Source of the DNA: Clostridia bacterium
GTDB taxonomy: Bacteria > Bacillota > Clostridia > Oscillospirales > CAG-272
Assembly (NCBI GenBank): GCA_017961575.1
Contig: JAGCXA010000020.1
Location: forward strand, 1 to 33,911
DNA length: 33,911 bases
Direction of reading: 5' to 3'
Numbering within the stretch: the first letter of the stretch is position 1; every line of letters starts with the position of its first letter. The translations under genes and the position numbers were made by a program. Of the stretch, positions 29,321 through 32,818 are shown in pieces. The notes under the pieces were generated by a model that did no database searches, was not told the origin of the DNA, and was given only the letters and a program-made list of their open reading frames with translations.

Positions 29321-30250
29321 TCAGTCCGCGAAGAGCGGGGTGGAAAGGTACCGATCTCCCGTATCGGGGAGCAGCACCACGATCGTTTTGCCCGCGTTCT
29401 CGGGGCGCTTGGCGATCTCGATCGCGGCGAACGCCGCGGCGCCCGAGGAGATTCCGACAAGCACGCCTTCCTTCTTGCCGATCAGTTTTCCCGTGGCGAA
29501 GGCGTCCTCGTTCTGCACCGGGATGATCTCGTCGTAGATCTTGGTGTTCAGAACGTCGGGGACGAAGCCCGCGCCGATCCCCTGGATCTTGTGCGGTCCG
29601 GCAACGCCGGTCGAAAGCACGGCGGAGGTGGCGGGTTCGACGGCGACGACCTTGACGGCGGGATTCTTCGATTTCAGATATTCGCCGACGCCGGTCACGG
29701 TGCCGCCGGTACCGACGCCCGCAACGAAGAAGTCGACCTTTCCGTCGGTGTCCGCCCAGATCTCGGGGCCGGTCGCTTCACGGTGCGCCTTCGGATTGGC
29801 GGGGTTGACGAACTGACCGGGGATGAAACTGTTCGGGATCTCGTCGGCAAGTTCCTGCGCCTTCGCGATCGCGCCCTTCATTCCCTTCGTCCCGTCGGTC
29901 AGGACGATCTCGGCGCCGTACGCCTTGATGAGTTGACGGCGCTCGACCGACATGGTTTCGGGCATCGTCAGGATGAGGCGGTATCCTCTCGCCGCGGCGA
30001 CCGAGGCAAGCCCGATCCCGGTGTTGCCCGACGTCGGCTCGATGATGACGGCGCCCGGTTTGAGTTTGCCCGACGCCTCGGCGTCGTCGATCATCGCCTT
30101 CGCGATCCGGTCCTTGACCGATCCGGCGGGATTAAAGTATTCGAGTTTGGCGACGAGTTTCGCTTTCAGACCGAACTCCTTTTCGACGTGGGTGAGTTCA
30201 AGCAGCGGGGTTTTTCCGATCAGTTGATCGGCGGAAGTGTAGATAGACAT
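29321..30250 (-). CDS. cysK: Cysteine synthase A (O-acetylserine sulfhydrylase)
   Basis: 309 residues, the standard size. Makes cysteine from O-acetylserine and sulfide with PLP. The PLP lysine is in [11 protein letters not shown] (about residue 43). [12 protein letters not shown] (substrate loop), [16 protein letters not shown] (phosphate loop) and [11 protein letters not shown] are all intact. ATG at 30250 is favoured (GAAAGGA upstream); an in-frame TTG 8 codons upstream has no ribosome site. It lies 42 bases after metY and has no promoter of its own, so it depends on the attenuated metY transcript. Confidence 0.96.
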
Positions 30251-30292
30251 GGTCGTTTTTCCTTTCGTATTCAAATCTGATTCGTTTTTCGG

Positions 30293-31576
30293 TTATCGGA
30301 TCGCCGCGAAACCTTTTTCAAGGTCGGCGATGATGTCGTCGACGTGTTCGGTTCCGATCGAGAGCCGGATCGTGTTCGGACGGATGCCCTGATCGAGCAA
30401 TTCCTCCTCGGAGAGCTGCGAATGGGTGGTCGAGGCGGGGTGAATGACGAGCGACTTGACGTCGGCGACGTTGGCGAGCAGCGAGAAGATCTCGAGCGCG
30501 TCGATGAACTTCCACGCTTCCTCTTTGCCGCCCTTCACGTCGAAGGTGAAGATCGAGGCGCCGCCGTTCGGGAAGTACTTTTCGTAGAGCGCGTGGTCGG
30601 GGTGATCCGCAAGCGACGGGTGGTTGACCCGCTCGACCTTCGGGTGATTTGCGAGGAACTCGACGACCTTTTTCGTGTTCTCGGCGTGCCGGTCAAGCCG
30701 GAGCGAGAGCGTCTCGACCCCCTGCAAAAGCAGGAAGGCGTTGAAGGGAGAGATCGACGCGCCGGTATCGCGGAGCAGGATCGCGCGGATGAAGGTCACG
30801 AACGCCGCGGGTCCGACGGCGTCGTAGAAGGAAACGCCGTGATAACTCGGGTTCGGGGCGGCGATATTCGGGTACTTGCCGCTCGCTTTCCAGTCGAACT
30901 TGCCGCTCTCGACGATGATCCCGCCGAGCGTGGTGCCGTGACCGCCGAGGAACTTGGTCGCCGAATGAACGACGACGTCGGCGCCGTGCTCGATCGGACG
31001 GATCAGGTAGGGGGTGCCGAAAGTGTTGTCGACGACCAGCGGGATCCCGTGCTTGTGGGCGATTTCTGCGAGCGCGTCGAGGTCGGGAATGTCGCTGTTC
31101 GGGTTGCCGAGCGTCTCGGCGTAGATCGCCCGCGTGTCGGGCTGGATCGCGTTTTCGACCTCGCGGAGGTCGTGAATGTTGACGAAGGTCGTTTTGATCC
31201 CGTACTGCGGGAGCGTGTGACCCAGCAGGTTGAAGCTGCCGCCGTAGATGGTCTTCTGCGCGACGATATGTCCGCCGTTCGCGGCAAGCGCCTCGATCGT
31301 GTAGGTGATCGCCGCAGCACCCGACGCCAGAGCCAGCGCCGCGCTGCCGCCTTCAAGCGCAGCGACCCGCTTTTCCAGAACGTCCTGGGTCGAGTTGGTC
31401 AGCCGCCCGTAGATGTTGCCCGCATCGGCGAGTCCGAAGCGGTCGGCGGCGTGTTGGCTGTTGCGGAAGACGTAAGAGGTGGTCTGGTAGATCGGCACCG
31501 CGCGGGCGTCGGTCGCGGGATCGGGCGTTTCCTGCCCGACGTGAAGTTGCAGGGTCTCGAATTTGTATTTGCTCAT
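30293..31576 (-). CDS. metY: O-acetylhomoserine (O-acetylserine) sulfhydrylase
   Basis: 427 residues, typical of the MetY/Met17 branch (about 425-440) of Cys/Met metabolism PLP enzymes. It makes homocysteine from O-acetylhomoserine and sulfide; some members use O-acetylserine. Motifs: VPIYQTTSYVF, the N-terminal active-site YGRLTNST, SGAAAITYTIEAL, NPNSDIPDLDAL, and the PLP lysine in SATKFLGGHGTTLGG (about 210). C-terminal IHPASTTHSQL and IRLSIGTEH. ATG at 31576 has AAGGAG upstream. First enzyme gene of metY-cysK, behind a 36-codon leader frame and an attenuator, and next to a LysR regulator. Confidence 0.95.
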   Translation of the reverse strand: MSKYKFETLQLHVGQETPDPATDARAVPIYQTTSYVFRNSQHAADRFGLADAGNIYGRLTNSTQDVLEKRVAALEGGSAALALASGAAAITYTIEALAANGGHIVAQKTIYGGSFNLLGHTLPQYGIKTTFVNIHDLREVENAIQPDTRAIYAETLGNPNSDIPDLDALAEIAHKHGIPLVVDNTFGTPYLIRPIEHGADVVVHSATKFLGGHGTTLGGIIVESGKFDWKASGKYPNIAAPNPSYHGVSFYDAVGPAAFVTFIRAILLRDTGASISPFNAFLLLQGVETLSLRLDRHAENTKKVVEFLANHPKVERVNHPSLADHPDHALYEKYFPNGGASIFTFDVKGGKEEAWKFIDALEIFSLLANVADVKSLVIHPASTTHSQLSEEELLDQGIRPNTIRLSIGTEHVDDIIADLEKGFAAIR

Positions 31577-31620: not shown

Positions 31621-31657
31621 TTCAATAAAAAGCCGGGGGCTTTCTTCGCTCCCGGGC
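31621..31657 (-). terminator. Intrinsic terminator in the metY leader (attenuator)
   Basis: On the minus strand CCGGGAGC pairs with GCCCCCGG (one A-C mismatch) around a 7-base loop and is followed by TTTTTATTG. It lies between the leader frame and metY and would end transcription before the structural genes. Confidence 0.75.
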
Positions 31658-31752
31658 AAACGGCGTACCGGCACGAAACGTGTCGATCTGTCAGGAGGCG
31701 CAACGCGAACCGTCGAACGCCTCCGCCGTACACTCTGCCCGGGAGAACGGCA
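31649..31752 (-). promoter_or_regulatory. Antiterminator / cysteine attenuator of metY-cysK
   Basis: CTCCCGGGCA (31736-31745, within leader codons 19-22) is a perfect 10-base complement of TGCCCGGGAG (31649-31658), the 5' arm of the terminator. ACGGCG and CGCCGT extend the pairing. A local alternative hairpin TGCCGT/ACGGCG (31724-31752), with CTC/GAG inside, would hide the upstream arm. A ribosome paused at Cys15 would cover TGCCGT and leave the arm free for antitermination. Confidence 0.65.
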
Positions 31753-31801
31753 TTCGACACCACTCGCGGCGATTCTGTTTTTCGGTCAATGAAACGTACA
31801 T
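31691..31801 (-). CDS. Leader peptide of metY-cysK, 36 residues with three Cys
   Basis: An ATG at 31801 preceded by AAGGAG 8 bases away opens a 36-codon frame, starting MYVSLTEKQNRREWC, with Cys at 15, 24 and 34. It starts about 24 nt into the predicted transcript. Three Cys in 36 is far above the 1-2 percent usual in proteins. Its Cys15 codon lies about 14 nt before the antiterminator arm, just where a stalled ribosome would melt the local hairpin without covering the arm. It shows no membrane segment or domain and is most likely a sensing frame, not a working protein. Confidence 0.6.
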   Translation of the reverse strand: MYVSLTEKQNRREWCRMPFSRAECTAEAFDGSRCAS

Positions 31802-31831
31802 GTTCGCGTCTCCTTCGTTTTGGTTGTTTCC

Positions 31832-31860
31832 ATTATACTCCGGAGCGCGCCGTTTGTAAA
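31832..31860 (-). promoter_or_regulatory. Sigma-A promoter of metY-cysK
   Basis: On the minus strand TTTACA (31855-31860) and TATAAT (31832-31837), 17-bp spacer; start expected near 31825, giving a leader of about 250 nt. Confidence 0.8.
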
Positions 31861-31880: not shown

Positions 31881-31901
31881 GTGATAAGCGGAAGTTATCA
31901 C
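31881..31901. promoter_or_regulatory. LysR-type box TGATA-N9-TATCA, probable cysteine regulator site
   Basis: Palindrome GTGATAA-N7-TTATCAC overlapping the lysR stop codon. It has the form TGATA-N9-TATCA, which from memory of comparative work in streptococci is the CmbR/CysR box. Its centre lies about 66 bp upstream of the expected metY start, the standard position of a LysR activator recognition site. It is part of the coding end of lysR, so the match may partly be chance, but symmetry and position argue for function. Confidence 0.6.
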
Positions 31902-32818
31902 AGATCCGCCGTCTCAATCTCCTTGTATTTTTTGAGTTCTTCGACGTACGCTTCGCCGTAGCGGGACAGGGCGCTTCCCCGCCGGACGATGTAGCCGATG
32001 ATGAGGGGGTCTTCCTCTTTCAGTTTGATCGCGACCATCCCTTTTAAGATCACGTCCTCGCCCGACAGCATCCCCGATCCGATCGAGTAGCCGCCGAGTT
32101 CGGCGATCATCTCCATCGTGGTCGCGCGGTCGTCGGATTTGATGGTCTTATCGAAGGCGTAGTCCGCCATCGCCTCCTCGGTCAGGTAGAAGTTGTCGTC
32201 GCCCGCCTGGTCGAACGAGACGCAGGGATAGCCCCGCATCTCCTCGATCGAGATCTCGCGCCGTCCGGCGAGCGGGTGATTCTGCCAGACGTAGACGTAG
32301 GTCTCGCGCCGCATCAGCGGCGTGAATTCCAGTTCGTAATCGCGGAAGAGTTTTTTGATGACGGCTTGGTTCGACCCCGAGAACGAAACGATCCCGACCT
32401 CGCTTCGGAGGGTGCGCACGTCGTCGAGCACGTCCTTGGTCTTGGTCTCGTGGATCGAGAAAACGTACTTGTCCGGGTTCGTCCGTTTGATAACGTCGGC
32501 AAACGCCTTCATCGCGAAGTTGTAGTGCTGGGTCGAGACCGAAAACCGCTCCTTGCCGCCGTCGCGCGACAGGTACCGGTCTTCGAGGATGCCGTACTGT
32601 CCGACGGCTTTTTTGGCGTAATCGATGAACTCCCTGCCCTCGTCGGTCAGACTGACGCCCTTGTTCGTGCGCTCGAAGATCAGGATGCCGAGTTCCTCTT
32701 CCAGTTCGCGGATGCTTGCCGACAGCGCGGGCTGCGAAACGTAGAGTTTCGTCGACGCCTCGCGCATCGAACTCGACGCCGCGACTTCCAGCACGTATTT
32801 CAGTTGGTTGACGTTCAT
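31898..32818 (-). CDS. LysR-family transcriptional regulator, probably of sulfur amino acid genes
   Basis: 306 residues, normal LTTR length. N-terminal winged helix-turn-helix MNVNQLKYVLEVAASSSMRE then LYVSQPALSASIRELEEELG (recognition helix about 28-48). C-terminal effector domain with the first subdomain from about 90. VGIVSFSGSNQ and the later PCVSFDQAGDDNFYL are in the ligand cleft region. It lies directly upstream of metY-cysK in the same direction and its likely box overlaps its own stop codon, which suggests it activates metY. The effector (O-acetylserine or similar) is inference. ATG at 32818 has AGAGGA upstream, 16 bases after the preceding gene, with which it is probably cotranscribed. 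Confidence 0.9.
   Translation of the reverse strand: MNVNQLKYVLEVAASSSMREASTKLYVSQPALSASIRELEEELGILIFERTNKGVSLTDEGREFIDYAKKAVGQYGILEDRYLSRDGGKERFSVSTQHYNFAMKAFADVIKRTNPDKYVFSIHETKTKDVLDDVRTLRSEVGIVSFSGSNQAVIKKLFRDYELEFTPLMRRETYVYVWQNHPLAGRREISIEEMRGYPCVSFDQAGDDNFYLTEEAMADYAFDKTIKSDDRATTMEMIAELGGYSIGSGMLSGEDVILKGMVAIKLKEEDPLIIGYIVRRGSALSRYGEAYVEELKKYKEIETADL

Follow-up and report, generated by a model that had tools for sequence, protein, structure and literature searches.

The window, as we call the whole 33,911-nucleotide stretch of DNA analysed here, carries on its minus strand, from 5' to 3', a LysR-type gene, a 19-bp palindrome, a promoter, a 36-codon leader frame, metY, cysK, and a probable ECF transporter component that scored below the cut-offs of its models. 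The metY gene (30293 to 31576, minus strand) belongs to the O-acetylhomoserine aminocarboxypropyltransferase/cysteine synthase family (TIGR01326, 625 bits, above cut-off), and cysK (29321 to 30274, minus strand) encodes cysteine synthase A (TIGR01139, 458 bits, above cut-off). The upstream LysR-family regulator (31898 to 32818, same strand) matched no listed model at its curated cut-off. A near-consensus sigma-70-type promoter (TTTACA-17-TATAAT, 31832 to 31860, minus strand, 11 of 12 matches) was found once, compared to 0.1 expected in shuffles, and promoters of similar form were present in genus relatives. The palindrome TGATAA-N7-TTATCA (31882 to 31900), 5' of the -35 box, overlaps the stop codon of the LysR gene and has similar dyads in genus relatives; we predict it to be a probable operator, perhaps the LysR gene's own. 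Elsewhere, the window's genome has a second MetY-family gene, 44% identical (C59:89910-91115), along with seven T-box matches (two above cut-off) and one SAM riboswitch.

Between the promoter and metY, all on the minus strand, we read a ribosome binding site (AAGGAG, 31810 to 31815) and a frame encoding the 36-residue peptide MYVSLTEKQNRREWCRMPFSRAECTAEAFDGSRCAS (31691 to 31801), with Cys residues at positions 15, 24, and 34. The proposed regulatory codon is the TGT of Cys15 (31757 to 31759), a single Cys at a place where relatives usually have a pair. Directly 3' of it lies CGA ATG (Arg-Met, 31751 to 31756), and then arm 2, the 5' arm of an antiterminator (CTCCCGGGCA, 31736 to 31745), which forms a perfect 10-bp helix with arm 3 (TGCCCGGGAG, 31649 to 31658). 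This pairing is extended by ACGGCG (31729-31724) with CGCCGT (31665-31660), and an inner hairpin, GGAGGCG...CGCCTCC (31694 to 31724), lies within the antiterminator loop. Arm 3 is also the 5' arm of an intrinsic terminator identified by folding (31624 to 31657), made up of the hairpin 31657-31632 and the U tract TTTTTATT, such that the antiterminator and the terminator are mutually exclusive. An earlier note on this DNA had described the promoter, the frame with its ribosome site, the three Cys codons, the antiterminator, and the terminator, and we found each of them where it had been placed, on the minus strand.

To collect related leaders, we used a search that fixed the spacing from CGA to arm 2 and allowed any CGN before ATG. 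This returned 48 matches, of which four were dropped as chance (L028 and, on the minus strand, L065, L070, and L075 at 1930). In 12 leaders, namely, the window's and those from the DNA searches of the genus and family described below, the core reads TG(T/G or TA) TGT CGAATG-N5-CTCCCGGGCA, then TGCCCGGGAG, then the terminator, with arm 3 beginning 89 to 114 nt after the start of CGA; arm 3 reads TGTCCGGGAG in L005 and L096. The frame leading into CGAATG was open from a Shine-Dalgarno-preceded ATG in 43/43 instances of this first set, and each of the two other frames was open in 1/43. The same frame was open in 27/27 covariance-model hits outside the training set (other frames, 0 and 2); these hits were located by CGAATG, and L143, which lacks it, is not included. 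From sequence, the leader frame is thus shown to be under selection as a coding region.

Cys codons are concentrated immediately before the CGA. At least one lies no more than three codons upstream in 42/43 first-set instances and in 25/27 of the model hits outside the training set. We assigned 61 leaders to class I (the first set minus L075 on the plus strand and L079, plus 20 of the 27 hits), and the seven other hits (L139-L142 and L144-L146) were moved to a second class described below. Within class I, Cys occupies position -1 in 51/61 leaders and position -2 in 50/61, and Met occupies position -3 in 37/61. Apart from Cys and Met, the peptide upstream of CGA is weakly conserved (entropy, 3.3 to 3.95 bits at -12 to -4; n = 61, with the far-upstream positions of short frames falling outside the frame), and the number and order of Cys codons vary among leaders (MCCRM, MCCCRM, MCMRM, MCWRM, MWCRM, and MCCYRM), both of which suit the sensing of codons. 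At positions -1 and -2, Cys is encoded by TGT in 64/67 cases; in the metY and cystathionine genes that these loci carry, TGT accounts for 6/11 Cys codons. In many relatives, Met codons often flank the Cys codons. We also observed a second recurring Cys position: 9/44 leader peptides end in Arg-Cys, usually as CGATGT plus stop (e.g., L018, L038, L041, and L085).

The CGA-AUG pair that follows the Cys codons did not vary within the first set (43/43), for which the search had allowed any CGN. The 27 further hits were found via CGAATG and therefore add no weight to this invariance. CGA is otherwise rare: among the Arg codons of the metY and cystathionine genes at these loci, it makes up 10/582. 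The Cys codon or codons end 11 nt before arm 2, and the spacing between CGA-AUG and arm 2 was kept in 27/28 model hits (gaps allowed), with one extra base in L131. The leader frame then crosses arm 2, with its stop codon 3' of arm 2 in 41/41 aligned leaders. This stop precedes arm 3 in 40/41 and lies beyond it in L096; in L120 the frame ends inside arm 2.

We aligned 41 of the 44 core instances, leaving out L069 (the same leader as L041) as well as L044 and L108, which keep the core and have no clear terminator; all counts on 41 leaders exclude the latter two. The main antiterminator helix is nearly invariant in this alignment (99.0% of cells paired), and the extension and the inner hairpin covary: we counted 43 double-change cells, compared to 16.0 ± 3.4 in shuffled alignments (0/500 as high) and at most 23 when the arms were slid. 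Among 28 sequences outside the training set, whose alignment is fitted to the model structure, there were 54 such cells, compared to 18.6 ± 3.2 when shuffled and at most 24 when slid. Here the main helix itself covaries, with one pair being G-C in 18 sequences and A-U in 8. The extended 10-bp antiterminator that the earlier note had drawn from a single sequence is borne out by relatives within and outside the training set. The note had proposed aligning related metY leaders as a check, and the frame, the Cys codons, the covarying helices, and the terminator were all found in them.

A hairpin followed by a U run was present in 41/41 aligned leaders (median z, -3.6). The window's terminator segment folds at -13.2 kcal/mol (z, -2.8) with a bulged stem; the simple shuffles behind both z values preserve base composition only. 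A simple terminator scan of the leader region detected none. A small alternative hairpin in the window, AAAGCC/GGCTTT, is absent in L006-L008, which points to the hairpin built on arm 3 as the terminator. As a whole, the leader folds only slightly better than its shuffles (z, -1.69; 12/200 as good), so it is conservation rather than folding that argues against chance. On the frame, codon, and covariation tests, we rejected a chance origin of the leader.

The placement of the Cys codons raises the question of how a ribosome waiting there would act on the RNA. We placed the edge of the ribosome relative to arm 2 by the size of its footprint, and the spacing between CGA-AUG and arm 2 suits a ribosome whose A site holds the last Cys codon and which leaves arm 2 just free. 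In folding tests, the nucleotides under the ribosome were held unpaired. With the last codon before CGA in the A site, the antiterminator was favoured in 28/41 leaders, including the window's, and not favoured in 13/41. With arm 2 covered, the antiterminator is impossible by construction, and the probability of the terminator exceeded 0.5 in 38/41. In these folding models, then, a ribosome on arm 2 does switch the leader RNA. The antiterminator still won, however, with the ribosome at the stop codon (17/41) and without any ribosome (20/41), the window being included in both counts, so the OFF state is explained only in part. The window folds as the antiterminator in every state except that with arm 2 covered.

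The earlier note had assigned a more specific role to Cys15, namely, that a ribosome stalled there would melt a local hairpin (31724-31752) that otherwise competes for arm 2. Its positioning of the ribosome agrees with the spacing, which would leave arm 2 just uncovered, and the hairpin can be written (GCCGT/ACGGC). As a protector of arm 2, however, it found no support. It is absent in L003 of the same genus, and the mean unpaired probability of arm 2 in the window was 0.51 without a ribosome and 0.50 with a ribosome on Cys15. Since stalling does not free the window's arm 2 before arm 3 exists, the hairpin is not supported as the key element, and we rejected it as a general protector. Across the alignment, stalling before arm 3 is made barely raised the accessibility of arm 2 (median, from 0.27 to 0.32; higher in 30/41). 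A possible protector pairing of GTCGAATGCC (31758-31749) with GGCGTTCGAC (31721-31712), spanning 31712 to 31758 on the minus strand (P1, the Cys-codon region GTCGAATG with CGTTCGAC), was complementary in 80.6% of cells and showed no covariation above shuffles. For want of covariation, P1 was rejected as a proven helix.

We consider it likely, from the conserved frame, codons, and helices, that the leader is a ribosome-operated transcription attenuator of metY-cysK that senses charged tRNA-Cys. When charged tRNA-Cys is scarce, the first ribosome would pause once the last Cys codon has entered its A site, covering CGA AUG NNNN and leaving arm 2 uncovered. The free arm 2, the inner hairpin, and arm 3 would then form the antiterminator, and RNA polymerase would continue into metY-cysK. 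When cysteine is plentiful, the ribosome would proceed over arm 2 and the inner hairpin; with arm 2 occupied, arm 3 would pair with its downstream partner, and transcription would end at the U tract. The invariance of CGA-AUG is not required by this model. Moreover, a group of leaders with a conserved NFRxGRM peptide speaks against it, as these keep CGA-AUG, and some of them also the RNA switch, without tandem Cys codons.

These class II leaders (L139 at 1501-1635 on the minus strand, L140-L142, L144-L146, L166-L170, L189-L204, and L206) encode the peptide F-x-x-L-(V/L)-R-x-N-F-R-x-G-R-M (LVRANFRxGRM) ahead of metN, metY, or MetQ-like genes. L139-L142 keep the whole RNA switch ahead of metN, L144-L146 are more diverged, and others are short and end close before metY. 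Over a stretch of 12 codons, much of the amino-acid sequence is conserved and the changes are synonymous, as judged on 18 instances that the CGAATG pattern had no part in choosing, seven of them chosen by the model. In the 18 instances not chosen by the pattern, the Arg of Arg-Met is CGA in 18/18 and the Arg at -7 or -3 is CGA in 0/34; in the 17 pattern-chosen instances, the latter count is 3/34. A search with the class II pattern gave matches in 18/291 class genomes, compared to 4 for the reversed control. For 17 of the 18 pattern matches, CGA precedes a gene start by 60 to 94 nt; the gene is metY in 15 (identified from their N termini) and encodes a MetQ/NlpA lipoprotein in 2, and in 14 of these 17 a Shine-Dalgarno-preceded ATG was found by rule. 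This conservation makes NFRxGRM a candidate nascent-chain arrest peptide.

Both proposed sensor types occur in the window's own genus ahead of related metY genes that are 81 to 100% identical, sometimes in tandem. As read from the sequence, L166-L170 carry class II where L003-L008 carry the Cys type, with the Shine-Dalgarno rule flagging just L166 and L169 among the former. In L086 (2664-2932, plus strand), L169, and L170, a Cys/Met-rich frame with a terminator-like hairpin comes first, and a short NFRxGRM frame then stands immediately ahead of metY. Separately, a dyad, CCTATTGACA-N2-GTAGG or close to it, overlaps the -35 box in L129, L131, L166-L168, and L170 and is probably the operator of a regulator.

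It is quite possible, if somewhat short of probable, that both classes represent one modular switch for sulfur amino acids. Such a switch would have a fixed RNA core (CGA-AUG, arm 2, arm 3, and the terminator) and exchangeable sensors, either a Met-Cys-Cys codon sensor or the LVRANFRxG arrest peptide, with CGA-AUG as the common stalling step. A related alternative to tRNA-Cys sensing keeps the same RNA switch but ascribes the stall to the nascent peptide or to the CGA-AUG pair itself, as a programmed Arg-Met pause of the sort that may also operate in the NFRxGRM leaders; the effector would then be another sulfur signal, such as Met-tRNA or a metabolite. The invariance of CGA-AUG in the first set and in the 18 class II instances, despite the rarity of CGA, speaks for this reading, as does the conservation of class II as peptide; a ribosome just past the Cys codons would also adjoin arm 2. 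We nonetheless hold it to be unlikely: in class I, the upstream peptide is weakly conserved save for Cys and Met, and the Cys codons vary in number and order (CC, CCC, CMC, WC, and CW) in a way that suits codon sensing.

The short class II leaders, with CGA so close to the gene start, could also be taken to mean that the leader acts on the translation of metY or on Rho-dependent termination rather than through the intrinsic terminator, and the cys leaders of actinobacteria, in the portion of their description available (PMC1262725), lack conserved terminators. Given that all 41 aligned class I leaders have a hairpin and U run whose arm 3 is shared with a covarying antiterminator, we regard such control as very unlikely.

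Cys and Met genes in Firmicutes are usually under the control of T-box RNAs, S-box (SAM) RNAs, and DNA-binding regulators. The earlier note had seen neither a T-box nor an S-box here, and our scan agrees: Rfam 15 gave no match at the metY-cysK leader even at an E value of ≤5, and T-box (RF00230), SAM riboswitch (RF00162), or other known RNA at the locus was rejected for lack of a covariance-model match. The only match from a scan of 60 other loci at the gathering score was to a purine riboswitch, which lies on the minus strand in L028. A structured, covarying RNA ahead of sulfur genes would fit a ligand- or protein-binding RNA, such as a riboswitch or a T-box variant, for which translation is not needed. 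This reading leaves the strong conservation of the frame unaccounted for, and the invariant part of the leader is coding and adjoins the Cys codons; together with the empty Rfam result at the locus, this renders it highly improbable.

We searched for the element at increasing taxonomic distance and found its distribution to be patchy. The covariance model matched in 7/69 genus, 16/395 family, 13/391 class, and 3/299 phylum genomes, with the window's own genome counted in each; one phylum hit (L150; E value, 0.002) was judged to be chance since no leader was visible. A DNA search of the 69 genus genomes yielded six further leaders ahead of metY (L003-L008), with three more short hits judged to be chance, and the same search of the 395 family genomes added L094-L097 and L100. 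The DNA hits L009-L011 and L102-L105 were judged to be chance or unrelated. A protein scan recovered 80 metY loci, 84 to 90% identical and mostly labelled Lachnospiraceae or Clostridia; one of those that carry the leader (L052) is from a named strain, Lachnospiraceae bacterium AC2029. A short frame that follows a Shine-Dalgarno sequence and has two or more Cys codons was found in 33/78 metY upstream regions, compared to 54/1560 shuffled ones (L060, in which no start was found, and L064, with a short upstream region, were left out). At an E value of ≤0.001, the model matched ahead of metY in 32/80 loci, 27 of which were in the training set, and gave no match ahead of metY in 48/80. Some loci without the core carry other Cys/Met-rich frames (L046, L047, L086, and L089).

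Outside the window's own genome, 17 of the 18 class matches had a met/cys or amino-acid ABC gene directly downstream: a MetQ/NlpA lipoprotein gene in 6, a cystathionine gamma-synthase/lyase family gene in 5, metY in 3, an ABC permease gene in 2, and metN in 1. The metY names pass TIGR01326, and the MetQ, MetN, and cystathionine names are those of the best models below their curated cut-offs. In L116, no downstream gene start was found in the locus; L116, like L044, L108, and L120, may be a decayed copy. Up to three model matches occur per genome in genus g136. The gene after L148 encodes a protein that combines an amino-acid-binding part with a MetQ part, and L143 and L059 precede amino-acid-binding proteins. 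Because Met codons flank the Cys codons and genes for Met transport and synthesis are controlled, the family probably senses both sulfur amino acids, with Cys dominant. That the adjacent LysR regulator performs the sulfur control through the palindrome 5' of the -35 box (genus relatives have dyads like it), leaving the leader as a constitutive attenuator or a remnant, is barely credible given that the leader is retained ahead of several different sulfur genes.

Attenuators of the trp and his type combine regulatory codons, a stalled ribosome, and an exclusive antiterminator and terminator with one common arm, and in their leaders the stop codon is not known to lie 3' of arm 2. The present leader resembles them in its short frame with codons for the operon's amino acid (its translation being inferred from frame conservation), in the proposed stalled ribosome, and in its mutually exclusive antiterminator and intrinsic terminator; a ribosome at the regulatory codons allows the antiterminator in the 28/41 leaders noted above, and in the window the antiterminator also forms without one. 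It differs in that the frame crosses arm 2 and stops 3' of it in 41/41, so that a ribosome at the stop codon does not occupy arm 2. As to a protector hairpin (1:2), the candidate region is complementary in most leaders and shows no covariation. The trp/his analogy drawn in the earlier note is supported for the Cys leader and the exclusive structures but not for its particular protector.

The nearest described element, as far as the accessible portion of its description goes, is the uORFC-8-2 motif, which lies upstream of cysS in Rhodobacterales (Alphaproteobacteria) and for which low charged tRNA-Cys is proposed to act by ribosome-mediated attenuation (PMC8632094). Both have a short frame with two tandem Cys codons (usually at positions 14 and 15 in uORFC-8-2) and an intrinsic terminator. 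In contrast to the present leader, uORFC-8-2 is, in that portion, restricted to cysS of Rhodobacterales, and its first stem holds the Cys codons; neither CGA-AUG nor an antiterminator of the present kind is mentioned in the part available. The gene set is also different, being metY at this locus and metY, metQ, metN, CGS/CGL, and ABC genes in relatives.

Polycysteine leader frames of cys operons in Actinobacteria were reportedly described by Canestrari et al. in 2020. In the available part of another account, such leaders have Cys runs near the stop and no conserved terminators (PMC1262725). They share with the present family a Cys-codon leader ahead of sulfur genes, and on the same partial evidence the present family differs in having a covarying antiterminator, a terminator, and a Cys pair in the middle of the frame, even though 9/44 leaders end in Arg-Cys. 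Leader peptides of regular kind are known in Firmicutes from Bacillus hisS and hisZ, where, according to the portion available, His leaders replace T-boxes (PMC2965389); there the codons are those of His and the genes are others. Among the matches listed in a search of the open-access literature (titles and beginnings of abstracts, with subscription papers and supplements outside its scope), there was no description of a Cys leader ahead of metY in Clostridia, nor, among those listed for the NFRxGRM peptide, of that peptide. The scope also included parts of PMC13236596, PMC11109978, PMC6429828, and PMC2864571, searched by term, and PMC8040213, which held none of the terms.

The proposed mechanism is of a known kind; what appears to be new, within the literature searched, is the family, its regulon, the mixture of Cys and Met, the location of the stop past arm 2, the invariance of CGA-AUG, and a peptide sensor that may be exchangeable. 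Of these points, the earlier note had foreseen neither a family with its own regulon nor Met beside Cys, the invariant codon pair, the position of the stop, or a related class of leaders with a conserved peptide. If our reading is right, bacteria known chiefly through metagenome-assembled genomes would have a family of peptide attenuators that governs a regulon of its own and that Rfam 15 lacks at the scanned loci. Even a genome with T-boxes and a SAM riboswitch, then, may rely on stalled ribosomes to control sulfur genes. Two features open to direct testing also emerge from the analysis: NFRxGRM, a conserved peptide that is a candidate for nascent-chain arrest, and a rare codon pair that does not vary. 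In L047 (2794-2913, plus strand), one of the loci without the core, the leader peptide MSYALINKSYEYMCSNRMCCCRIGSCRMCCCDMCNDCID, ahead of metY, has 10 Cys in 39 residues and contains CGAATGTGT twice.
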